A DNA stretch of 51,776 nucleotides, taken from the IMG/VR virus record IMGVR_UViG_3300028835_000931, positions 1-51,776 of that record. One strand, written 5' to 3'. Positions 2,772 to 32,762 of this stretch are shown here, piece by piece; within the stretch, counting starts at the first letter, position 1; each line of letters begins with the position of its first letter. The DNA comes from a virus. Below the pieces are notes generated by a model. It was not told where the DNA came from. It saw only the letters and a list, made by a program, of their open reading frames with translations, and searched no databases. The position numbers were made by a program, and so were the translations under genes.

Positions 2772-3644
2772 ATGTCGCAGTGGCTAAACTTCGGCTTAGG
2801 TGCACTCAACATTGCGGGCCAAGGTATTGGCTGGTTGGGTGCGCGGGGGGCGAACGAACAACGCTATCAGGAAGCGATGGAGCTGGCTCAGGGTCGTTTC
2901 GGCGGCGGCATGGAGATGTACGGGCAGGGAGCTGGCAACATCATGGGTGGCTACGGTCAGTTGGGCCAAAACCTGTTGCAAGGCCCGGCAGGCTACGGAC
3001 AAATGCGCCGCGGCATGAGCGAACTCTGGCAGCAGCGCTCACGTGGCCTGGGTGGCGAGTACGGGGCGCGGGCTGCCGGATTGGGCGGAGAGTACACGGC
3101 CCGTACCGAAAAGGCCATCGGGCAACTAAAGGGGTTAGGTGAACAGGCGCGCAAGGACCTGGAGCGCCGGTATGGGGAGCTTGGCGCCCAGCAACGCCAG
3201 CAACTCAGACGTACTGGCATGGGGGGCACGACCGTCCAGGCTGCCCAAGCAGCAGGGCTGGAACGCGGGAGAGGTGCTGAATCCCGACGACTTGAAGCAG
3301 ACCTCCGGCGTGAACGCATCGGCGTGGAATCCGGACTGCGTGGTGAGGAGCTGGGGGCTCGGGCTGGCCTGACGGGCCAAGCGCTCGGAGCGCGTGGCCA
3401 GCTAAGCGCCCAGGAATACCAGATGCGTCAGCAGCTAGGGCAAATGCACCTGGGTGCCTACGGCCAGATCGGCGGTGCGGCGCTCGGCGCTGGTGAACGG
3501 CTGTTGCAGCAGGGAATGGGCTGGGGTGGGCAACTATCGGGCGACATACTGGGCCTGATGGGAAGTCGGTCCGATGTGTACCCGCCGCCGAATCCGTACT
3601 TGCAACAACTGGGTCAGTACAGCTACCCGCAGCCTTGGCAGTAG
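2772..3644 (+). CDS. Gly/Gln-rich candidate internal virion (ejection) protein
   Basis: A 290-aa protein with GGAGACCTGAT before its ATG. The composition is striking: Gly, Gln, Arg and Leu dominate, with repeated GLGGEYGARAAGLGGEYTAR-like and ARAGLTGQALGARGQLS segments that predict a long amphipathic helix, then YPPPNPYLQQLGQYSYPQPW. The first of three consecutive genes that look like the internal/ejection proteins of podoviruses. No specific homologue is claimed. Confidence 0.65.
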   Translation: MSQWLNFGLGALNIAGQGIGWLGARGANEQRYQEAMELAQGRFGGGMEMYGQGAGNIMGGYGQLGQNLLQGPAGYGQMRRGMSELWQQRSRGLGGEYGARAAGLGGEYTARTEKAIGQLKGLGEQARKDLERRYGELGAQQRQQLRRTGMGGTTVQAAQAAGLERGRGAESRRLEADLRRERIGVESGLRGEELGARAGLTGQALGARGQLSAQEYQMRQQLGQMHLGAYGQIGGAALGAGERLLQQGMGWGGQLSGDILGLMGSRSDVYPPPNPYLQQLGQYSYPQPWQ

Positions 3645-3662
3645 GTAGCTTGAGGATACACG

Positions 3663-5276
3663 ATGCCGTATGAGATACGCTGGGGACCGCCGCCCGTTCT
3701 GGAGGGCTTCACGCAGTTCATGCTGGGCCGCATGGGGGCCAAGCGTGAGGCGGAACGGTGGGAGTACGAGCACCAGACGCCGTGGGGGCGCATAGGGGGG
3801 ATGGGCGCAGGGGGTGCGGGCGGAGCTACTGTGGGTGCGATGGTCGGGTCTGCGTTTGGACCACTTGGCGCCGTAGCTGGGGGTCTACTCGGCGGCGGAA
3901 TGGGAGCCTACGGCGGTGGCGAGATGGGGGGTGCTATCTTTGACCCGCAAACAACTGCTGAAAGTATCCAGGGTCTACGTGGAGCAGCCAGCCAAGTGAC
4001 GGACGTGGGCACTCGCCTCTACATGCAGGAGCGGGGGATAGCGGCGCAGCAGCAGGCGGCGACGCAGCACCAGGATGCTCTTTATAGCCGTATGCACCTT
4101 CGCGACTTCGGCATGACCGAGGCCGAGATGGCTGGCGAAAAAGCACGTGAGATTCAGGCGGGCAGTATACCAGCGGACACCACCGATGCCGGATACCGTC
4201 AGGTTCTCGCCAAGCGCCGACTGCAAATGACAGGCGACGAGTACATCCGGCGAGACCGAGAGCGGTATTTCTTTGGCCGGACTGGCGGGCGGATGGGTTA
4301 TGCCCAAGCACTAGAGCAGAACCCGGATGACCCGATGGCGGTGTTGGCGCCTGCCATAATGGAGTATCAAGAGCAGCAGCAGGCGGAGCGGCAACAGCAA
4401 GCCCAGGCGGTTCAATATGCCCAGCAGGTTCAACAAGCTTCCGATAGCCTTCCACAGAATTCGGATGTAAACAGGGAACTTAGTAGAGCACGGTATGCAC
4501 TTGTAGGCGCAAACGCCGGCTTTTATCCAGGGAACCCTCCAGAGCAAGCCAAGCAGGGGCTCCGCCGACAAATGATGCAGGATCTTCGCACTGCCGAGCG
4601 AAAGGTGATAGAGGAAGCCGAAGCCTCAAAGATGACCCCGGAGAGGCGGCAGCAGCAAGTCGATAACAGCGTTGGTTACGTTCGTCACCCAGACACAAAC
4701 GAAATCATCATCACAGAAGTCTTTGACGAACAGGGGAATCTCAAGTACGCGATACCGTATCGGCCACCGACCGTCAAGGAACCCCCGATCCGAACGCCGG
4801 ATGACGTGCTCAGATTGCCGCTCGATGACTCGTTCCGCTCGAAAGTCATAGGTGAGGCGCGTCGCCTTGCTCGTGAGGAGATCGGCGAGCCGCTGGAGGG
4901 ACCGCCGGGGCCGGTAAGCGAATCTCATCTACGTCGGAAAATGTGGCAGGTCTTAGACGAGTTGACGATGGTTGACCAGGTCGGGCGCGACGTGGGCGAC
5001 TACAAACGCGAGATGATGCGCGAGGCGGACGGCCAGCCTGCGCCGCCGACTGCTCCGTCACCTCCGGCGGCTGACCCACAAGCCGCGCAGCAGCTACAGG
5101 AAGCCGCTCAACAGTTGCAGGACACGAACATGAAGATTCGTGAGATCATGGCTGAGATCAAGAGCAAGGGAGCGGAACTGTCACCAGACGCAAAGCGGGC
5201 GCTCATCCAAGAGTACATTCAGCTTGCTCAGACGAAAACGCAACTTGAGCAAGCAAGTGGGGCAGCGGCACCATGA
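3663..5276 (+). CDS. Gly-rich, helical candidate internal virion protein
   Basis: A 537-aa protein. After a basic N-terminus, residues about 45-95 form a hydrophobic Gly/Ala-rich stretch (GGMGAGGAGGATVGAMVGSA..., GAVAGGLLGGGMGAYGGG) that could insert into membrane. The remainder is mostly charged helix, with Gln-rich runs (QEQQQAERQQQAQA) and a C-terminal coiled coil (QAAQQLQEAAQQLQ). A membrane-active segment followed by long helices is typical of podovirus DNA-ejection proteins. Its stop overlaps the next start (ATGA). Confidence 0.65.
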   Translation: MPYEIRWGPPPVLEGFTQFMLGRMGAKREAERWEYEHQTPWGRIGGMGAGGAGGATVGAMVGSAFGPLGAVAGGLLGGGMGAYGGGEMGGAIFDPQTTAESIQGLRGAASQVTDVGTRLYMQERGIAAQQQAATQHQDALYSRMHLRDFGMTEAEMAGEKAREIQAGSIPADTTDAGYRQVLAKRRLQMTGDEYIRRDRERYFFGRTGGRMGYAQALEQNPDDPMAVLAPAIMEYQEQQQAERQQQAQAVQYAQQVQQASDSLPQNSDVNRELSRARYALVGANAGFYPGNPPEQAKQGLRRQMMQDLRTAERKVIEEAEASKMTPERRQQQVDNSVGYVRHPDTNEIIITEVFDEQGNLKYAIPYRPPTVKEPPIRTPDDVLRLPLDDSFRSKVIGEARRLAREEIGEPLEGPPGPVSESHLRRKMWQVLDELTMVDQVGRDVGDYKREMMREADGQPAPPTAPSPPAADPQAAQQLQEAAQQLQDTNMKIREIMAEIKSKGAELSPDAKRALIQEYIQLAQTKTQLEQASGAAAP

Positions 5277-8200
5277 ATCAGGTTGACGAATACGAACGGG
5301 CACGCCAACAAGCTGCACAAGAAGGGCAGATAACATTTGACGGGTTCGAGCCGGAAATCCTCCCGGACCCAATGCTTGAACGCGACATGCGCCGATTCGA
5401 GCGCGAGCAGGACATCTACCCGCAAGGCGAGCCGCCTATCGAACAACAAATGCGGGAGTTCGAGATCGAACAGGTCACGCGGCCTGCGGCATGGCTGGCA
5501 ACCGAAGCACGCCGCAGGGCCTTGCAGCTTTCACCCGACGATTACCGTGAACTAGAAAGCAGTGAACACTTCAGCGAGAAGTTCTGGGAGGGACTGCGTG
5601 GGGAGTTCGAGGACCGTTTCCCGACGATGGACTTCGAGCAGTTCCGCAACGTGTTCAGCAAGACGTATGAGCTGACACGGCAGGGCTTCCGCTACTTGGC
5701 GACTCGGCAGGTCGCTGGCACTACGCTCGACGAGCCTGCGCGAATGTTGCGCGGGGTTCCCGAGGAAGACAGGCAGGCGTTCGAGTTCATCCTGAATGGA
5801 CTCGCTGCTGACCCACAGGTTCGTGGCCGCCTCGGCGAAGACATCCCAGCTATCGCGGCGCCGGTGCGGGGCCTCAAGGCGGGGATGAATGCCCTAGCAG
5901 AAAACGTCGGTCGCCTTCTAGGTGGGCAACAGGCCAACGAGTTCTTCGATTACACGCGGCGTGCCGGCCGTGTTCGCCGGATGGCTCGTGGTCCCGAAGC
6001 CAAGAGTTTCGTGGGCAAAGCAGCGGTACAGGCCGCCGAGATGGCACCCGAGATGGCGATTAGTGCGGCGCTCACTGGGCCGCGTGCTGCCGGTGTTCTT
6101 ACCAGGCTGGCTGGGCCGTACCTCTACTGGTTCAACCGTATGATCCCCGACGCCTATGAGGAATACCGTAGCTTCGGGATCGACGATACGAGTGCAGCAA
6201 TCGGCGCGGCGATCACCAGTGCGGCTGAGGCTGGCATCGAACTGATGGTCTCGCCCGCTCGAATGCTCGGTATTGGAGTTCGTCGGAAAGCTCTTGCGGC
6301 TGGCCGACAATCGCTGAGTCGCTGGCTGCTCAAGCAGGGAGCGGACTTCGGCAAAGAGTTCAGCGAGGAAATCTTCCAGGATGGCTCCCGCCTGTTCATC
6401 GCCGCCGCGTTAGAGTCGATGGACAAGGACGTGGACATCGACTGGGAGCGCGTCATCGGGCAGCGGCTCAAAGACCTGCCCCAGACGGCGCTGTCTCTGG
6501 CGTTTGTCATGGGACCGGCTCGTGCGGTCGCGGGCGGACGGATGGGGCTGGAGGAGCTGGGCAGGGCTGGGTGGGAGCCGATGGTTCGGCCAGTTCAGCC
6601 GGAGAAGCCCTGGGCGTCAACGGAGTTCGAGAAGCCTGAACGGGCTGCTGAGTTCGCCAGGGAGTACCCTGAACTGACCGCAAAGCTGGCGGAAACCACC
6701 AAGACGCTGTCGCGGCGAGACCCGACGCTACGCCAGGTAGCCAAGTTCGAGAAGAACACGGGGGAGAATCGGCAAGCGGTTGTGGATGCGCTCCGCACCG
6801 CAAAGGAGACCGAAGATGCCCGCCAAGTACAAGAGGTGAGTGAAGAAGGTGCGCGCCTCGTTGAGGCGCCAAGGGAAGAGCGGGAACCCGCACGCGATCT
6901 GTACGGCCGCGAACGTGGGGAACGTGAAGGCGTACCGGAAGCGGAAGGCCGTGAAGCAGCGGAAGAAGCGGTCGTAGAGGAGCCGCCCCCGACCGAGCCT
7001 CCTGAAGCCCGCCCCAGCGCCATGCCCGCAGGCGGGCTTGAACTCCCCGTATCGCTGGAAGCTGCCCCGGCCCAGCCCATCTCGGAGCACGCCATCGTGG
7101 CCGGGCTCGGACGCATCTGGGACGTGACCATCCGTAGCGGCCGGGTGGGGGGCACGGCTGCCGGCATCTACAAGAACGTATTCGGCCGGACGGCACCCGA
7201 GGTCATCCGCACGAAACGCGGGTTCGAGGGCAACCTGGCGGTCGTCGCCCACGAAATCGCCCACCACATCGACCGTCGCACCGGGATTCGCAAGGCCAAG
7301 ATGCCCAAGGCGGTCAAGGACGAAGTCCAGCGTCTCGACTACGAGCCGAACATGCGGCGCACACATGAGGGGTTTGCCGAGTATGCCCGACACGCTCTGA
7401 CGATGGACGATGCCGCCGAGATCGCGCCCGAGTTCCACAAGTGGTTCACCGAGCAGTGGCGACCGGCCAACCCCGAACTGGCCGAGAAGTGGGATCAGAC
7501 CAGAGACCTTATCAGTCGGTGGCGCGCTCAGGGCGCGATGGCACGCGGGCTGGCCAACATCAGCCAGACACGACGGCCGGCACAGCCCGAGGGCATCACG
7601 CGAACTGCATGGTGGGGGGAGCGGCTCGCTTACGCCGGCCACCGCTTCTACGCTGCCATGAAGGACGAGCTTCACTTTGGGCACCTGTTTGACACGTCGG
7701 CTCATGCCCGTGGTGGGGCCGACAAGCCTGGCCGGCGGCTCTGGGACATCCTGATGGCGTTTAGTCAAGCGGGACCGACCTACGCCGATCGGGCGATGAA
7801 GAATGGCCCATTCTTCGTCTCGAACGAACGCTTCGGTCAGCAGGCTGGCCCGGCCTTTGCTGATGTCTTCACCGAGATCGACCCCAACGAACGGGCGGAA
7901 TTCGAGGTTGCAGTCTGGGCGCGGCACGCGAAAGAAGCCTGGGCTAAAGGCGTCAACCCTGGCATGTCGAAAGAGGATGCTGACTGGATTCACGAAAACT
8001 ACTGGAACGACCGCTATGAGCGAGCCGCGAATACGTGGACCGCCTACAACAACGGATTGCTGGACGTGTTGGCGGACTCCGGGGCAATCAGCCAGGAGAC
8101 CGCTGACCACCTGAAGGACTACTGGAAGACCTTTATCCCACTGCGGCGTCTGCTGCCAGCTTCATCCCGGGCCTTGCGCATGGGCAAGCACCAGATGGGG

Positions 8201-10186: not shown

Positions 10187-10220
10187 CCCCGCTGAATCCC
10201 CAATTCCCCCGCACTTCCCC

Positions 10221-10249
10221 TTGACAACGCTTGGCATTCATGCTATTGT
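10221..10249 (+). promoter_or_regulatory. Sigma-70-type promoter for the recombinase unit
   Basis: TTGACA (10221-10226), a 17-nt spacer, then TATTGT (10244-10249). A start near 10256 would put the Shine-Dalgarno (AGGAG, 10256-10260) at the very 5' end of the transcript. The 22 nt at 10212-10233 are identical, in reverse orientation, to 32276-32297 around another promoter, so both may answer to the same factor. Confidence 0.75.
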
Positions 10250-17661: not shown

Positions 17662-17670
17662 CGCGTCACC

Positions 17671-17865
17671 TCAAGTTTGCGGGCGTGCCGCCGAACGCTT
17701 GCCCAACGCTTCAAATGCGCGCACGTGAAACTCGTAGATGTTCGTGTCTTGCCACATCCGCGAATCGCCACATAGCAACCAGCCACATACAGACTGCTCG
17801 ACAAGTCTAACGAGCGCTTTGTGCCATGCTGGACCAAGTGATTTCAGTAAGTCCAAATCGGTCAT
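17671..17865 (-). CDS. Uncharacterised 64-aa protein
   Basis: MTDLDLLKSLGPAWHKALVRLVEQSVCGWLLCGDSRMW... starts at 17865 after AGGAGTTGTA. The body is helical. Its last codons (KRSAARPQT) are made by one copy of a 17-bp repeat found three times in front of early genes (17680-17696), so the repeat was read into the C-terminus. No family recognised. Confidence 0.65.
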   Translation of the reverse strand: MTDLDLLKSLGPAWHKALVRLVEQSVCGWLLCGDSRMWQDTNIYEFHVRAFEALGKRSAARPQT

Positions 17866-18148
17866 TACAACTCCTAACTGTACGGGCGTGCCGCCGAACG
17901 TCTCAAGGCCAGTTTTCAAGTTCTTCGGCCGAAGCATTAGTATTTACAATAGCATCCGTTTTGTCGTGGATGGCGTGGCGATGTCCTCGCTTGGCGGCTA
18001 ACCTCTTGGCGCATTGACCGCCACAAGCGTAACCACCGAAGCTGCTACCCAAGCCGCCTTTGTCGAAATCAAACTCTTTGCCACAGTTGTTGCAGGTTTG
18101 CATGTCCACCAGTTACTCCTTTGAAGTTATGCGGGCGTGCCGCCGAAC
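17680..18148 (-). repeat. 17-bp repeat in three copies before small genes
   Basis: On the minus strand, GTTCGGCGGCACGCCCG occurs exactly at 17680-17696, 17883-17899 and 18132-18148, each about 15-20 nt upstream of the next Shine-Dalgarno. Spacing to the start is similar each time although the neighbouring genes are unrelated, which makes it a start-associated sequence and not a coding repeat. Confidence 0.8.
17903..18109 (-). CDS. Zinc-ribbon mini-protein, GTG start
   Basis: 68 aa beginning GTG GAC ATG after AAAGGAGTAACTG. CNNCGKEF and C-GGQC (YACGGQCAKRL) make a clear four-cysteine site; the remainder is basic, then acidic (NASAEELENWP). It resembles the treble-clef or ribbon proteins common in phage early regions. 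Function unknown. Confidence 0.75.
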   Translation of the reverse strand: MDMQTCNNCGKEFDFDKGGLGSSFGGYACGGQCAKRLAAKRGHRHAIHDKTDAIVNTNASAEELENWP

Positions 18149-18169
18149 ATCGACGGTGATGCGAGTCAT
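18113..18169 (-). CDS. Possible 18-aa peptide over the repeat
   Basis: MTRITVDVRRHARITSKE is encoded mostly by one copy of the 17-bp repeat and ends in the AAAGGAG of the next gene (..S K E stop). No good ribosome site lies upstream. It may be a leader peptide that controls the zinc-ribbon gene, or a chance frame. Confidence 0.25.
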   Translation of the reverse strand: MTRITVDVRRHARITSKE

Positions 18170-18204
18170 CCCGAGTAGGTGAATCTGAGGCGTATCGATT
18201 CCTC

Positions 18205-18399
18205 TCAACTCGCATCGTCCTCACGCCCGCTTAGTTTCATCGCTGCCTTCCAGGCGTTGGCCATGTGCTTGCGGCATTCGTCACAGAGGTAGGTTCTCCG
18301 CTTGAACCCGACGAGGTCTATCTCACACAAACACGCCTCGAAGGGGGCGCCCCGCTTGCTGTGACACCGTTCACACTCATTCCAGAGATCGAGCATCAT
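18205..18399 (-). CDS. Zinc-finger mini-protein
   Basis: 64 aa. CERCHSKRG, an inner pair CLCE, and CDECRK form a cysteine-rich metal-binding core, with a helical end (HMANAWKAAMKLSGRE). The start at 18399 or 18396 follows GTGAGGACGG and overlaps the stop of the RuvC-like gene, so the two are coupled. Confidence 0.7.
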   Translation of the reverse strand: MMLDLWNECERCHSKRGAPFEACLCEIDLVGFKRRTYLCDECRKHMANAWKAAMKLSGREDDAS

Positions 18400-21385: not shown

Positions 21386-21762
21386 CTCGTCACCGCACCG
21401 ATAACGTAGCTCCGCTGCAAATAGGCGCGCTTCGAGCTGTCCGGCTCTTCCTGTCGTATGCGTTCCTCTTCGGTCACGAACTCGATGTGCCTGTTGATGT
21501 CCTTGAACTCAGACCGTACACGGCCCCGGCGTTGGCTCACCCAGTACAGGACGCCGCAGTGACCGTAGCGCCAGAACAGTTCCGCGAGCAGGGGCAATTC
21601 CTCATCGGGCACGTATTGGCCGTCCGCACACGCCCATGCCCACGTATCGTTCATGTTCAAGGTTTGAGCCCAGTCCTTGCCCTCGACCCCGTCATCGTCG
21701 TCTTTGCCGAAAAACAGGTCTGCTCGTGTCAGCAATTCGCGGGCTTCTTCTTCTGTGAACAT
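21382..21762 (-). CDS. Uncharacterised 126-aa acidic protein
   Basis: MFTEEEARELLTRADLFFGKDDDD... starts at 21762 after GCGGTGACGAG, identical to the site of the next gene. The middle (DTWAWACADGQYVPDEELPLLAELFWRYGHCGVLYWVSQRRG) has aromatic and Cys/His residues. It is the first gene after the 830-bp gene-free region, and the leader carries a T-arm-like hairpin. Overlaps the next start by ATGA. Confidence 0.7.
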   Translation of the reverse strand: MFTEEEARELLTRADLFFGKDDDDGVEGKDWAQTLNMNDTWAWACADGQYVPDEELPLLAELFWRYGHCGVLYWVSQRRGRVRSEFKDINRHIEFVTEEERIRQEEPDSSKRAYLQRSYVIGAVTR

Positions 21763-22594
21763 CTCGTCACCGCATCCCTTGGCACAAGGGCTACGCCCGT
21801 CGCGGGACTCGAACCCACTGTTCAGCCTCCCGCATCTCGAACTCGCCGTGGCCTTTGGCTATGCGGTTCCAGCGGCTTTGCAACCAGCACGGGCATTGTT
21901 TCTCGTCAAGCGCACCCAGCCCTTTACGACCGACCCTACGGGCAAGTGAAATCCGCATGGTCTTTGCCGCTCTCCCTCCTGGATCTCCGCCCGAACAGCA
22001 AAAAATCGCGGCGGACGATCTCAGAGAGAACGGGGTCGCTTGGCTCGCAAGCAAAAACGCGCACGTCGGCCCCGGGTCGCAAGGGAAAACGTTGCCCGGA
22101 TTTTGGAGAGGAAGCGCGACAACTTTCGCGAGCTGGCACGAGCCCCTGGGGGGTGCTCGCCGACCGTCCCGATCCTGCCAGTTGATTGCCCCACTTTTGG
22201 CACTTGTCGAGTGGCGGGGTAAGTGGTAGCACGGAACCCGCGTGATGCTTGTGGCTCGCCAACAACCGGAGATGCGCGACAAACAACTTTGTGGTGCACC
22301 CGTGAGCCACAAGATGAAGCCCCCTTCGCCCTCAGCGACCCAGCCCGAAGCGTGCGCACGCTTGGCCGTCGCCTCGATCTCCAGCCTTGGTGTTGCCAAA
22401 GCCGGACCCACCGAGCTGAGCCGCTGAGGAAGAAGGGGGAAAAGCAATCGCCCAGAACGACCCGACCCGATGGTCCAATGGCTAACGTTGCTAAGTCGCA
22501 GCCGGCGAATCGGGCCGCCCTGGGCGGTTGCAGAGAGAACGAGATTATTGACCATTGAACCATACCCCGTCTTTACGGGCTGTTTGCGGGCGTG
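21763..22594. other. Gene-free, palindrome-rich region
   Basis: No frame on either strand looks coding (long frames are Arg/Ser/Pro-rich and lack ribosome sites). It contains: T-arm-like hairpin 21802-21818 inside ACCGCAT/ATGCGGT arms (21769-21775, 21861-21867); perfect 10-bp inverted repeat CTTGTGGCTC (22248-22257 with 22304-22313); perfect 16-bp palindrome AAGCGTGCGCACGCTT (22348-22363) flanked by GCGAC/GTCGC; and an 11/12 inverted repeat ATGGTCCAATGG (22471-22482 with 22553-22564). Candidates are an origin, a non-coding RNA or decayed genes. Confidence 0.7.
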
Positions 22595-22599
22595 TCAAG
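22571..22599 (-). promoter_or_regulatory. Possible promoter reading into the gene-free region
   Basis: On the minus strand TTGACA (22594-22599), 17 nt, then TAAAGA (22571-22576). The -35 hexamer overlaps the stop codon of the 147-aa gene, as at 30.18 kb. It would transcribe the 830-bp gene-free region before reaching the gene at 21762. The -10 match is only 3 of 6. Confidence 0.45.
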
Positions 22600-24340: not shown

Positions 24341-24481
24341 TGCGGCGGGCAGGTACGCGTTCAGTTATGCGGGCGTGACGGGCCGGATTCCCCACCCGGC
24401 TCCATGCGGTTGTAAGCCCTGACAGTTGGCCTACGGTACGCAACACCCTACCCGGCGCTGCCACGCTGCCGCCACGCCCGC
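24341..24481 (-). other. Structured leader element before the 72-aa gene
   Basis: On the minus strand it ends CCCGCCGCA, like the other elements of this type, directly before AAGGAG. A perfect 9-bp inverted repeat, GCGGGCGTG (24369-24377) with CACGCCCGC (24473-24481), closes the core. Inside, GCCGG and CCGGC close a hairpin, and TGCGGTTGTAAGCC pairs with a GC-rich partner near 24430-24443. The minus-strand motif GGCTTACAACCGCA recurs as GGCTTATAACCGCA in the next element. Confidence 0.55.
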
Positions 24482-24572: not shown

Positions 24573-24648
24573 GATGCGGCGGGCCAAGTTTGCCCACCTT
24601 GGTGCGGTTATAAGCCACATCGCCGCGAGGCAGCGCCGCCGCCGCATC
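24573..24648 (-). other. tRNA-like cloverleaf element
   Basis: 76 bp closed by a perfect 10-bp inverted repeat, GATGCGGCGG (24573-24582) and CCGCCGCATC (24639-24648). Read on the minus strand it gives a D-arm-like CGCT/GGCG stem, an anticodon-like stem TGTGG/CCGCA around the 7-nt loop CTTATAA (T33 present; 'anticodon' TAT), and a third stem CCAAG/CTTGG. The third loop (GTGGGCAAA) is not a canonical TTCRANY T-loop, so this is tRNA-like but probably not a working tRNA. It precedes the 20-aa frame. Confidence 0.5.
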
Positions 24649-28645: not shown

Positions 28646-28816
28646 TCAGCTCCAAACCTGTTTCGCCAGGAACCAGATCACCAGCCCGACCGCGACCGCT
28701 ATCACGCCGAGCTTGCCGAGTAGCTTCATGCCGCAATACCATTCCCAGGTCGCACGCGAGCAGCCGTGGGTGTCCTCCCGGCTGTCGTCGAGGAGGATGC
28801 GTTCGTCGTTGGTCAT
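28646..28816 (-). CDS. Small C-terminally anchored membrane protein
   Basis: 56 aa (MTNDERILLDDSREDTHGCSRATWEWYCGMKLLGK...). The C-terminal half has one membrane helix (LGVIAVAVGLVIWFLAKQVW). GGTGGTAGCT precedes the ATG at 28816; a longer frame would need a GTG or TTG start. Ends 2 nt before the next gene's start. Function unknown. Confidence 0.6.
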   Translation of the reverse strand: MTNDERILLDDSREDTHGCSRATWEWYCGMKLLGKLGVIAVAVGLVIWFLAKQVWS

Positions 28817-28818
28817 AG

Positions 28819-28860
28819 CTACCACCAATCGGGATGGTCGTCGTCGCCGCCGATGTTCAT
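28819..28860 (-). CDS. Possible 13-aa leader peptide
   Basis: MNIGGDDDHPDWW has a perfect recurrent start sequence (TTGAGGTGACGCC) and ends 2 nt before the ATG of the 56-aa membrane protein, inside its ribosome site. It could regulate that gene by coupling. Very short, so only translation signals support it. Confidence 0.4.
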   Translation of the reverse strand: MNIGGDDDHPDWW

Positions 28861-28876
28861 GGCGTCACCTCAAGCG

Positions 28877-28926
28877 CCCGCCCGCCGGCCGTGAAAGGCG
28901 GCAACCAGACTGACCGGCGGGACGGG
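28877..28926 (-). other. GC inverted repeat in a leader (second copy)
   Basis: CCCGCCCGCCGG (28877-28888) pairs with CCGGCGGG-A-CGGG (28914-28926) around a 25-nt loop. It ends 7 nt before the GAGG ribosome site of the 13-aa frame, mirroring 24009-24064. A T-loop-like GTTCGAGCC lies at its upstream side on the minus strand (28924-28936). Confidence 0.65.
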
Positions 28927-28955
28927 CTCGAACACGAGGAGGAGAGAGAGAAGGA

Positions 28956-29079
28956 TGCGGCGGGCAGCGCACGCTAACGGCATTGCGTGCGCTATTCGGC
29001 TGTAAGCTCCCACGGGTTGCGGACCCGCTTAGCCGTAGACCTCCTTGACCGAACGTGTTACCGACACGCGCCCGCCGCA
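28956..29079 (-). other. Branched structured element (TGCGGCGG type)
   Basis: TGCGGCGGGC (28956-28965) pairs perfectly with GCCCGCCGCA (29070-29079). Within it are: a perfect 9-bp stem, AGCGCACGC/GCGTGCGCT (28966-28974, 28985-28993); a longer arm, CGGCT..AAGC with CTTAGCCG, capped by CGGGT/ACCCG (28997-29035); and CGTGT/ACACG (29054-29068). This is a closed multi-branch fold. It is adjacent to the next unit with only 2 nt between. Confidence 0.65.
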
Positions 29080-29081
29080 AA

Positions 29082-29194
29082 TGCACCAGGCCGGTCCTGC
29101 CCCGGCTCCGCGCCTCTTTGGTATAGTCGTTGGCCGCTAAGCCCCGTTGCTGTACGCGTTCCTTGCGTGTCATCTTCGCCACGCCGCTGGTGCA
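29082..29194 (-). other. Branched structured element (TGCACCAG type), copy A
   Basis: Ends TGCACCAG (29082-29089) and CTGGTGCA (29187-29194) are perfectly complementary. Next to one arm is GCCGG-7 nt-CCGGC (29090-29106), positioned like a T-arm next to an acceptor stem, but the loop is not TTCRANY; near the other arm is GCGTG/CACGC (29165-29184), positioned like a D-arm. A 103-aa minus frame (from 29174) runs through it and the adjacent elements but becomes low-complexity; I do not call it. Confidence 0.6.
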
Positions 29195-29198
29195 CCAT

Positions 29199-29486
29199 CT
29201 ACTGATACCGTTTACCGGTTTCAGCAGCATCGTATCTTTTACGCCAATTACAATTGGCACAGAGAACTTGTAGTCGTTTGAAGTCCGGCTTTTTCGCGAT
29301 TTCCAAGTATTTCGTAATCGTGCCCGTGTTGCGTGCATCACGCCGTTCTTTTGATCCACCTCCTCTGATGTGGTCAATCTGAAGCACGCGCCAGTCTGTC
29401 TCGCCGCAATGTGCACAATGTCCACCAAGAGCAGTAAGCGCTGCTTGCCGTGTCCGTATCCGATATGTCTGTGTCTGTTTTGCCAT
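29199..29486 (-). CDS. HNH endonuclease, likely homing type
   Basis: 95 aa. CAHCGE (C24, C27), LQIDHIRGGG (D38, H39) and LQVLCANCNWRKR (C76, C79, N80) give the full zinc-linked HNH core, with a short N-terminal basic arm. It would nick or cut DNA. It sits alone inside an array of structured elements and is flanked by 19-bp direct repeats (29176-29194 and 29523-29541), as a self-inserting homing gene might be. It has its own promoter. Confidence 0.85.
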   Translation of the reverse strand: MAKQTQTYRIRTRQAALTALGGHCAHCGETDWRVLQIDHIRGGGSKERRDARNTGTITKYLEIAKKPDFKRLQVLCANCNWRKRYDAAETGKRYQ

Positions 29487-29492
29487 GCCCTA

Positions 29493-29520
29493 ACTGTAGC
29501 GTGTCGCCGCGACACGTCAA
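29493..29520 (-). promoter_or_regulatory. HNH promoter with overlapping palindrome
   Basis: Minus strand: TTGACG (29515-29520), 16 nt, TACAGT (29493-29498). The spacer is a perfect palindromic stem, GTGTCG-CGG-CGACAC (29501-29515), a good operator candidate. The expected start is about at the HNH ATG, so the mRNA would have almost no leader. Confidence 0.55.
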
Positions 29521-29533
29521 GCTCGCCACGCCG

Positions 29534-29659
29534 CTGGTGCAAAGAAGATGCGGTGGACCAACCGGACGCAGTTGCCAGGGGCGACCTGACAGCCCGGCTC
29601 GGCGCGGTCGGCCAGCAGGAGCCTTCACCGCTACGTTTCCGCCACCGCAACCGCACCAG
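29534..29659 (-). other. Nested structured element (TGCGGTGG type), copy B
   Basis: Outer arms CTGGTGC (29534-29540) and GCACCAG (29653-29659) enclose inner arms TGCGGTGG (29549-29556) and CCACCGCA (29642-29649), all perfect. The interior holds GCGGT/ACCGC and other short stems. Both arm types are those of the neighbouring units, so the array alternates the two kinds of closing stem. Confidence 0.6.
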
Positions 29660-29798
29660 GCCGGATTCGAACCGGCATCTCTGCGTCCGGCAGGCAAAGG
29701 CGGGGATGGTTACCCGCTTGCTTCCCTTCATCGGCCGACTCGGTATCGCTCCATTGCGTTGCCTTCCGCAGCGTGATAGGCCGTCACACCGCTGGTGC
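29653..29798 (-). other. Element C: acceptor-like arms plus canonical T-arm
   Basis: On the minus strand GCACCAG begins and CTGGTGC ends a 146-nt unit, and directly before the 3' arm is GCCGG-TTCGAAT-CCGGC (29660-29676), a textbook tRNA T-arm placed as in a tRNA. No standard D-arm or 5-bp/7-nt anticodon arm is found, and the unit is about twice tRNA length. It could be a tRNA enlarged by insertion, a decayed tRNA, or a tRNA mimic. Confidence 0.55.
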
Positions 29799-29809
29799 AA
29801 AGAAGAGAC

Positions 29810-29885
29810 GCCCGGCACGGCACGTTGGGTTCGAACATCAGGAGGGGTGCTAGGCTGGGTAGGCCACAGCAAAGCCGTGCCGGGC
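29810..29885 (-). other. Element D: perfect 12-bp stem
   Basis: GCCCGGCACGGC (29810-29821) and GCCGTGCCGGGC (29874-29885) pair without a mismatch, closing a 76-bp unit with a GTTCGAAC core. A further 7-bp stem, GAGAATG/CATTCTC (29898-29918), follows the stop of the upstream 68-aa gene. Together they could end transcription from the 30.15-kb promoter or start the structured array; no T-run is present. Confidence 0.6.
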
Positions 29886-29929
29886 GAGGGATTGCTCAGA
29901 GAATGGCGAATCATTCTCGATTCCTCGGT

Positions 29930-30136
29930 TCAGGTCGTCGATGGGCTTGTATAGCCAGTGCCCTTGTCGCCCCCTACAACCTTGCCCTGCTGGGCGATGA
30001 AGGCCCGCAGGATGAACTCGAACATCACCGGCTGTGTCCATTTGTACTGGCGGCATAGTTCGTCGAACGCCTGCTTGTCCGCCTCCTCGGCCATTACGAC
30101 CTTGGTAGGCCGTGGCTCACCTTTTTCGCGTCCCAT
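29930..30136 (-). CDS. Small basic, possibly DNA-binding protein
   Basis: 68 aa: MGREKGEPRPTKVVMAEEADKQAFDELCRQYKWTQPVMFEFILRAFIAQQGK... The start at 30136 has AGGAG 7 nt upstream. A basic beta-like strand (TKVVMA) followed by two helices (DKQAFDEL, TQPVMFEFILRAF) is the ribbon-helix-helix layout of small repressors. It has its own good promoter and lies at the head of the structured array, so it may be a local regulator. Confidence 0.65.
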   Translation of the reverse strand: MGREKGEPRPTKVVMAEEADKQAFDELCRQYKWTQPVMFEFILRAFIAQQGKVVGGDKGTGYTSPSTT

Positions 30137-31246: not shown

Positions 31247-31286
31247 AGCTCGTCTCCTGTGTTCGGTTATCAGACTCTAAGGCGTC

Positions 31287-31305
31287 GGCGGGAATCGAAC
31301 CCGCC
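31287..31305 (-). other. tRNA T-arm-like hairpin in leader
   Basis: Minus strand GGCGGG-TTCGATT-CCCGCC, a 6-bp stem and exact TTCRANY loop, placed between the stop of the 72-aa gene and the leader of the 68-aa gene. The sequence 3' of it (GACGCCT) could be an acceptor strand, but no matching 5' half exists upstream. It is either a tRNA 3'-end fragment, which could be an attachment core, or part of the T-arm-like leader series. Confidence 0.5.
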
Positions 31306-31314
31306 TGGGGCCGG

Positions 31315-31533
31315 CTAGGCGGCGGCTTTGGCGATTGCGGCACGAGCCTGGGCTTTGGTGCGGAAAACGCAGCCTAGAGGATCGCCACCATACGCACGGC
31401 CGTACACGATGTAGCCTCGCTCTGTGCGACCCTGCAACGTGGTAACTGTCTGCGGTTCGGGCTCGACCGCGAGCGTGTCGCCGTAGACCTCGACGGCTCG
31501 TGTCAACGCTCGATTCTGAGCGGCGGTTACCAT
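31315..31533 (-). CDS. Uncharacterised 72-aa protein
   Basis: MVTAAQNRALTRAVEVYGDTLAVEPEPQTVTTLQGRTERGYIVYGRAYGGDPLGCVFRTKAQARAAIAKAAA. Start at 31533 after GAGGGAGAACAGCT. Beta-rich centre and an Ala-rich basic helix at the end. Its leader carries GTCTGATAACAC, a relative of the repeats at 31.8-32.25 kb. No family recognised. Confidence 0.7.
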   Translation of the reverse strand: MVTAAQNRALTRAVEVYGDTLAVEPEPQTVTTLQGRTERGYIVYGRAYGGDPLGCVFRTKAQARAAIAKAAA

Positions 31534-31808: not shown

Positions 31809-31839
31809 AATCCCTTCTCCTGTGTCAGAACCCTGATAC

Positions 31840-32007
31840 CTATGACTCGAGCAAGGAACGTGCCAGCCCAACACGGTACGGTTCAAGCCCCGCACGCTCC
31901 GCCTTGCTGCGTGCTTCGAGTCTCGAGATCGCCCAGGTGTAGTAAGGCCGAGATCGGCCGTGGCAGTAAACCCGCCAGCGCTTCAAGCTGTGACCCTGCC
32001 ATTCCAT
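31840..32007 (-). CDS. Basic 55-aa protein
   Basis: MEWQGHSLKRWRVYCHGRSRPYYTWAISRLEARSKAERAGLEPYRVGLARSLLES. Start at 32007 after ACACGGAAGTAGCACG, behind one 19-nt leader repeat; its stop abuts the next copy. Highly basic with aromatic residues, as in small host-interaction proteins. No family recognised. Confidence 0.6.
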   Translation of the reverse strand: MEWQGHSLKRWRVYCHGRSRPYYTWAISRLEARSKAERAGLEPYRVGLARSLLES

Positions 32008-32038
32008 CGTGCTACTTCCGTGTCAGAACCCTGATACC

Positions 32039-32260: not shown

Positions 32261-32288
32261 AGCATAACACACCTGCAAGCGTTGTCAA
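32261..32288 (-). promoter_or_regulatory. Early leftward promoter
   Basis: TTGACA (32283-32288), 16 nt, TATGCT (32261-32266) with an extended TGn just before the -10, minus strand. The surrounding 22 nt (32276-32297) match 10212-10233 exactly in inverse orientation. It would drive the run of small early genes. Confidence 0.75.
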
Positions 32289-32405
32289 GGGGAAGTGAGA
32301 ATTATCTTGCAGACCCATACATACTATATTGGCATGGCTCGAGCCGGTGACGTCGGGCTCGGTGACCGATACTTGCCGGCGCTGGAAAGCGTCAGCAAAG
32401 CGGGG

Positions 32406-32762
32406 TCAATCGGCCATGATAGCTCGCCAGCGCTTCTCACGCTCGTGCTCCGATGTCCGTGGTCGCTCAGGCAGCTTGTTGTTGAAGCGCCTGATGTAGC
32501 TGCGTGCTCGAGGCTTGTCGCTCGGCGGCCGTTTCTTCGCGGGTAGAGCTCCGTGGGCTACTCTGTGGCAACGTCGACAGAGCAATCGCAGGTCGCCGAG
32601 CTCCTCCTGGAATATCCGCTCGTAGGTCACGTGGTGGACGTTCATGCGCCTCAAGCGTCGATGACAGGCCTCGCAGAAGCCGCCAGCACGCTTGACGACC
32701 CGCTGGCACAGCCTACGCCACTGGGGCGAGCGTAGGTACATCTTGTAGCTTGAAGAGATCAT
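32406..32762 (-). CDS. HNH endonuclease
   Basis: 118 aa (or from the ATG at 32741). CEACHRR (C30, C33), NVHHVTYERI (H43, H44), then LCRRCHRVAH (C62, C65, H66, H70) make a complete zinc-bound HNH nuclease. HNH proteins near terminase genes can assist packaging; others are homing enzymes. This one is the first gene of the leftward arm and faces away from terminase, so either role is open. Confidence 0.85.
   Translation of the reverse strand: MISSSYKMYLRSPQWRRLCQRVVKRAGGFCEACHRRLRRMNVHHVTYERIFQEELGDLRLLCRRCHRVAHGALPAKKRPPSDKPRARSYIRRFNNKLPERPRTSEHEREKRWRAIMAD

Follow-up and report, generated by a model that had tools for sequence, protein, structure and literature searches.

Location and coding state of the array

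What kind of sequence is the array of closed inverted-repeat units that fills a gap between genes of this phage, and how did an HNH gene come to lie within it? The window, by which we mean the whole 51,776-base stretch of DNA analysed here, is the record of a tailed phage in which profile search identifies a terminase, a capsid protein, a RecE-like exonuclease and a serine-type integrase. The minus strand holds most genes between about 11.5 and 32.8 kb, and the array region is the gap reaching from the gene that ends at 29930 to the gene that starts near 28816, minus the HNH gene. With the HNH gene excluded, all six frames of this DNA score non-coding, including a 349-aa ORF on the minus strand and a 194-aa ORF on the plus strand that run through the array. 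The 349-aa ORF also lacks a Pfam or PHROG family match, and its reading as a protein was rejected. Because every frame outside the HNH gene scores non-coding, the array shows no protein conservation across it in one frame, the observation that the preliminary description had named as speaking against its proposal.

Architecture of the array

Six units make up the array, all on the minus strand, and the closing stems previously proposed for them are found and exceed chance. At the upstream end, unit U1 (29809-29886) is closed by a perfect stem of 13 bp, and its last arm ATGTT[CGAACCC]AACGT abuts the 3' arm of that stem. Unit A (29653-29798) has the closing stem GCACCAG/CTGGTGC and resembles a tRNA-Arg(ccg). 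Unit B is closed by TGCGGTGG/CCACCGCA and contains a weak 3' hairpin (P 0.11); the closed unit is present as described earlier, with its borders at 29549-29649 rather than at 29534-29659. A duplicated A-type 5' end lies upstream of the HNH gene (29523-29541, minus strand) and copies 29176-29194 exactly over 19 nt. On the other side of the HNH gene, unit A2 (29082-29194) combines the closing stem TGCACCAG/CTGGTGCA with a D-like arm, a cloverleaf fold and, in the T-arm position, the last arm GCCGG[GGCAGGA]CCGGC. It is followed by unit B2 (28956-29079), which has a 10-bp stem TGCGGCGGGC/GCCCGCCGCA and a 9-bp last arm, and by unit C (28877-28926), whose stem is GC-rich and bulged. Just downstream of unit C and directly 3' of it lies a possible 13-codon ORF ending in HPDWW (28816-28862, minus strand), and then the next gene.

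The closing stems measure 7-13 bp and, with few exceptions, pair perfectly, and the unit interiors diverge. The alternation of two stem types reported before holds as A-B-A-B in four of the six units, while U1 and C are each closed by a different stem. In addition to the exact 19-mer, the junctions between units contain repeats of 25 nt at 92% (29524-29548 vs 29782-29806) and of 23 nt at 87% (29072-29094 vs 29642-29664). Three inverted repeats have arms of 10 bp or longer, compared with 0.18 per shuffle, and none of 300 shuffles reaches three; exact direct repeats of 16 nt or more likewise have no counterpart in 300 shuffles, and arms of 7-9 bp are in modest excess only (P 0.01-0.04, shuffles). 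Relative to shuffled sequences, the folds of U1 (z -5.3), B2 (z -4.4) and C (z -3.4) are unusually stable; unit B is at most weakly more stable than shuffles, and A and A2 are no more stable than these. A sliding fold scan made without the unit register does not single out units A, A2 and B.

The HNH gene within the array

The gene inside the array (29199-29486, minus strand) encodes an HNH endonuclease of 95 aa that matches PHROG 2255 (E 1.7e-9) and PHROG 4234 (E 7.5e-9); its Pfam HNH score of 18.6 bits is under the 21.4 cut-off. Because its GC content is 49%, compared with 66% around it, and a duplicated A-type 5' end lies alongside, the gene looks like a late arrival in the array. A homing-type HNH gene may have entered at an A-type 5' end, and the roughly 19-26 nt duplicated there would be a trace of that event. 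Homing endonuclease genes, SegB among them, are located beside phage tRNA genes (PMC13096335), and the array is similar in holding an endonuclease gene within a tRNA-type cluster together with a local duplication; the nuclease here, however, is a small HNH protein of a different family, and its homing is putative. A second, different HNH endonuclease gene is found at 32406-32762, close to where the early operon begins.

Repeated junctions with an HNH gene among them could also belong to small palindromic mobile elements carrying their own mobilising nuclease, as the preliminary description had considered, or to an integration site with the 3' end of a tRNA, to which an exact 24-nt match between the T-arm and acceptor of unit A and a bacterial tRNA-Thr would correspond. 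We regard this origin as very improbable. The exact patterns tried recover no copies of the units from IMG/VR, where matches to exact junction patterns lie outside any array context and were set aside as chance. Moreover, the neighbourhoods of the HNH relatives contain no tRNAs or array-like units, the HNH gene differs from its surroundings in base composition, and the divergent interiors are unlike those of copies of one element. The integration site was rejected on the grounds that the host-type tRNA match is short, hardly reaching past the T-arm and acceptor, and that the integrase is a serine recombinase.

Hairpins in the T-arm position

Eleven units were tested for a hairpin immediately adjoining the 3' arm of the closing stem, the place of the T-arm in a tRNA: the six array units, the units B3, B4, C24 and D18 from elsewhere in the window, and one unit of a sister phage (all described below). 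On the gene strand, ten of the eleven carry such a hairpin, which is the acceptor/T-arm geometry of a tRNA-like processing element on the transcribed strand; half of these ten hairpins (five) have 5 bp and a 7-nt loop. Over the units, Fisher P is 5.7e-7, compared with 0.44 antisense, the former value being somewhat optimistic because the test was devised and its loop range fixed after some units had been seen, and because a T-arm had served to find the sister unit. With the same P values, the six array units alone give about 5e-6.

Comparisons between units contain hints of a structure under constraint. The closing stems of B and B2 differ by the exchange of a T-A for a C-G pair. The last arms of B3 and B4, CCAAG[GTGGGCAAA]CTTGG and GCCGG[GTGGGGAAT]CCGGC, keep the loop and have three pairs changed on both sides, and units A and A2 have identical acceptor and T-stems with most bases of the T-loop different.

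Resemblance of unit A to a tRNA

With introns allowed, ARAGORN calls exactly one tRNA in the window, a tRNA-Arg(ccg) at c[29651,29799] that equals unit A to within two bases and has a 74-nt insertion in the anticodon loop; since the intron mode also returns 17 false hits in 200 shuffled windows, this call alone is not proof. The unit has a perfect 7-bp acceptor, a D-like arm and an anticodon-type stem CTGCG/CGCAG that brackets the insertion. Its canonical T-arm GCCGG[TTCGAAT]CCGGC (29660-29676, minus strand) scores 17.9 bits with a covariance model built from 21 tRNAs of a Planctomycetaceae array. Inspection of the ARAGORN fold finds no U33 under any insertion point considered, and positions 8 and 14 carry other than the usual bases. 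Among the array units, only unit A combines a 7-bp acceptor with a 5-bp T-arm and a TTCRANY loop; the others have non-consensus loops.

Standard searches return little for this DNA. In the window, ARAGORN calls no ordinary tRNA in its default mode and no tmRNA in its tmRNA mode, and Rfam gives no match at the gathering score and nothing relevant at a weak threshold. The insertion of unit A, just 74 nt long, matches no group I intron in Rfam at either the gathering or the weak threshold. The array also does not contain the two or more called tRNAs per kb that define a phage tRNA cluster. The preliminary statement that no known family fits all of the array is thus correct for the Rfam, ARAGORN and tmRNA searches.

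Related units and leader repeats elsewhere in the window

Related units are present in other gaps between minus-strand genes, and some units stand singly before genes; the preliminary description included neither feature. Unit B3 (24573-24648, minus strand) is a 76-nt cloverleaf with the closing stem GATGCGGCGG/CCGCCGCATC, a 7-nt loop CTTATAA and a non-consensus T-loop in its last arm. Unit B4 (24369-24481, minus strand) folds with several arms (z -3.4) inside the closing stem GCGGGCGTG/CACGCCCGC, and the same stem closes unit D18 (18131-18230, minus strand; z -4.4), which overlaps the end of the preceding gene and lies upstream of a gene start. Unit C24 (24009-24064, minus strand) is an 11-bp closed unit between two genes, without a T-arm-like hairpin.

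A tRNA-like match at 31279-31348 (minus strand; 21.1 bits, E 2.7e-4) contains a canonical T-arm at 31288-31304, overlaps the end of one gene and is located 41 nt ahead of the next start. A tRNA with a 703-nt 'intron' at 31.3-32.1 kb was set aside in favour of this better local match, since such a tRNA would extend across several genes. The canonical T-arm GTGGG[TTCGAGT]CCCGC at 21802-21818 (minus strand) scores weakly, at 12.5 bits, and a start codon lies 39 nt downstream of it, at 21762. Together with unit A, these two account for all three tRNA-consensus T-arms with G53:C61 in the whole window; each of the three belongs to the early region and lies on its minus strand. Single units are located just ahead of genes, a placement that suggests a possible part in mRNA processing.

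Other repeats before genes differ from these units and bear on an alternative. The cassette GTTCGGCGGCACGCCCG is repeated at 17.7, 17.9 and 18.15 kb (17670-17699, 17873-17902 and 18122-18151), before three successive genes, and is followed by an A-rich ribosome-binding stretch; a second motif, TATCAGGGTTCTGACAC, precedes gene starts at 31814-31840 and 32012-32038. Leader cassettes are also present in a distant relative, and some of the hairpins are not T-arms. These repeats would agree with a reading of the units as intercistronic hairpin leader cassettes of the cluster K start-associated-sequence type, which would act on translation or mRNA stability, the tRNA likeness of the units being partly coincidental. 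For the simpler units, SAS/ESAS-type leader hairpins are a possibility; as an account of the array we find them improbable, since its six units follow one another instead of being spread singly over the genes, loops of the T-arm consensus recur, and neither the joining of a canonical T-arm to a 7-bp acceptor in unit A nor the covariance-model scores would be expected of plain hairpins. The cluster K SAS/ESAS elements are 17-bp imperfect inverted repeats with 4-13-bp spacers beside a conserved 13-bp start sequence (PMC3203893). They share with the present units the repeated placement of inverted-repeat elements just 5' of phage start codons, whereas here stems of 7-13 bp surround about 30-130 nt with further arms, and the array units also follow one another without genes.

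Relatives of the phage and its probable host

The nearest relative in the searched collections is a sister phage (L129; IMG/VR 3300037246_001819, 51,289 bases), whose portal is 51% and capsid 68% identical. It was turned up by a portal scan of IMG/VR, and the capsid scan gave the same sister only; single-protein scans of IMG/VR with terminase and YqaJ returned nothing, and neither did a gapped IMG/VR pattern for the sister-type unit or a whole-region nucleotide search of 50,697 phages. The sister phage has no called tRNA. Its 130-nt unit (L129:3181-3310, minus strand) resembles the B units in its 8-bp ATGCGGCG/CGCCGCAT stem, possesses a D-like hairpin, a branched middle and a canonical T-arm, and lies 34 nt ahead of the start of a 504-codon ORF. 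In a distant relative (L122; portal 27%), two leaders contain the acceptor/T-arm minihelix CCCCCG...CCCGG[TTCGAGT]CCGGG..CGGGGG, 34 and 52 nt ahead of start codons; further tRNA-like units, all degenerate, are grouped at 6558-6833. Some relatives do carry real tRNAs.

T-arms of this kind outside called tRNAs number only 8 in 902 kb of other IMG/VR contigs. The covariance model gives 21.3 bits in L122 and 22.2 bits in the sister phage, where it chooses a different 5' partner for the T-arm; this makes the exact fold of the sister unit uncertain. Controls reach at most 10.6 bits in the late region of the window and at most 16.5 bits in 86 kb of other phage contigs.

The 24-nt T-arm and acceptor of unit A has one exact match in 84,980 bacterial and archaeal genomes, which lies in the tRNA-Thr(cgt) of a 32-tRNA array in a Planctomycetaceae genome. 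In the same array, the acceptors of tRNA-Asn (TGCGGTG/CACCGCA) and tRNA-Gln (TGCGGGG/CCCCGCA) are close to the B-type stem. A scan restricted to Planctomycetota finds homologues of the window terminase in 6 of 392 genomes (best 32% identity, E 5e-74), and because of these homologues, together with the exact match to a tRNA 3' end, the host of the phage probably belongs to Planctomycetota.

A proposed origin and role of the units

The computational results establish the anatomy of the units as predicted structures, their strand specificity, their resemblance to tRNA and their recurrence in relatives. Two of the earlier suggestions, a cluster of non-coding RNAs and a tRNA array that has decayed and recombined, give the best fit when taken together and are supported in part, on the basis of the strand-specific T-arm geometry, the canonical T-arm of unit A, the sister unit and the Planctomycetota-like acceptors. 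Our preferred reading, to which we assign slightly less than an even chance, is that the array consists of tRNA-derived, non-decoding units in the leftward early operon that may be processed, and that the HNH gene invaded them.

Transcription, processing, function and the order of events are what we infer in this reading. On the gene strand, each unit would preserve a tRNA 'top half', namely an acceptor-like closing stem with a T-arm-like hairpin stacked 3', and its anticodon half would have been lost, expanded or replaced. The acceptor/T-arm half of a tRNA is the minimal substrate of bacterial RNase P. The units would be transcribed together with the early mRNA, and RNase P and/or RNase Z of the host may cleave those that retain the acceptor/T-arm minihelix, without decoding, which would yield trimmed mRNA ends and small tRNA-like RNAs. 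As a lead only, the tRNA cluster of phage T4 contains RNAs C and D, stable non-tRNA RNAs of similar size; the likeness is one of description.

A serious rival is the decay of an ordinary tRNA array like those of phages and Planctomycetota, in which genes broken by insertions, duplications and HNH invasion have left fragments without function. The exact 24-nt match to tRNA-Thr of the 32-tRNA array and the similarity to the acceptors of its tRNA-Asn and tRNA-Gln agree with such a history, as do the lost U33, the non-canonical T-loops of most units and the real tRNAs of some relatives. Nevertheless, we consider simple decay somewhat unlikely: the closing stems are perfect in nearly all units, hairpins are retained in the T-position though their loops have changed, B-type ends are common to a sister phage with only a 51% identical portal, and units are placed ahead of gene starts.

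Comparison with known systems points both ways. Phage and bacterial genomes contain tRNA gene clusters (PMC6409571, PMC5966550), with 15 or more genes in clusters of PMC6409571. The array is similar in its tandem tRNA-type units on one strand with short spacers, and in its Planctomycetaceae-like acceptor and T-arm sequences, but none of its units is called as an ordinary tRNA, anticodon arms are absent or carry insertions, and units also stand singly ahead of genes. In mitochondria, real tRNAs punctuate the genes of a polycistronic transcript (PMC5474008). Here as well, tRNA-like structures lie between genes and adjoin gene starts; in contrast to the mitochondrial tRNAs, they are unlikely to decode, and their processing is putative.

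Processing of the proposed tRNA-derived units, if it occurs, would make them the phage equivalent of tRNA punctuation in mitochondria or, alternatively, a source of tRNA mimics, which might engage the tRNA enzymes of the host or its defences that cut tRNAs. A wider and quite doubtful extension is that a lineage of Planctomycetota phages punctuates its early genes with non-decoding tRNA-like elements that have replaceable interiors and serve as cutting sites for the RNase P and RNase Z of the host, much as real tRNAs do in animal mitochondria, the array being a stockpile of them. A word search of the open-licence literature found no papers on non-decoding tRNA-like units before phage genes. If the units are relics instead, they would show how phage tRNA arrays erode; since standard tRNA finders miss such remains, the tRNA content of phages would then be undercounted.

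Additional features of the window and other contigs

A 636-nt gap between minus-strand genes (21960-22595) contains no clear gene and includes a strongly folding RNA, with z about -5 at 22301-22430. An identical 22-mer, CACTTCCCCTTGACAACGCTTG, which contains TTGACA, is found at 10212-10233 (plus strand), upstream of the integrase operon, and at 32276-32297 (minus strand), upstream of the leftward early operon; it is probably a promoter or operator common to both. The Planctomycetaceae array of 32 called tRNAs (L104:663-3957) lies on a contig of 4.1 kb from a metagenome-assembled genome, and the gaps between its tRNAs contain further tRNA-like stretches. In L122, near-identical leader cassettes of about 56-78 nt precede successive genes (3313-5258), and the third copy of one cassette has an altered hairpin that is still paired.
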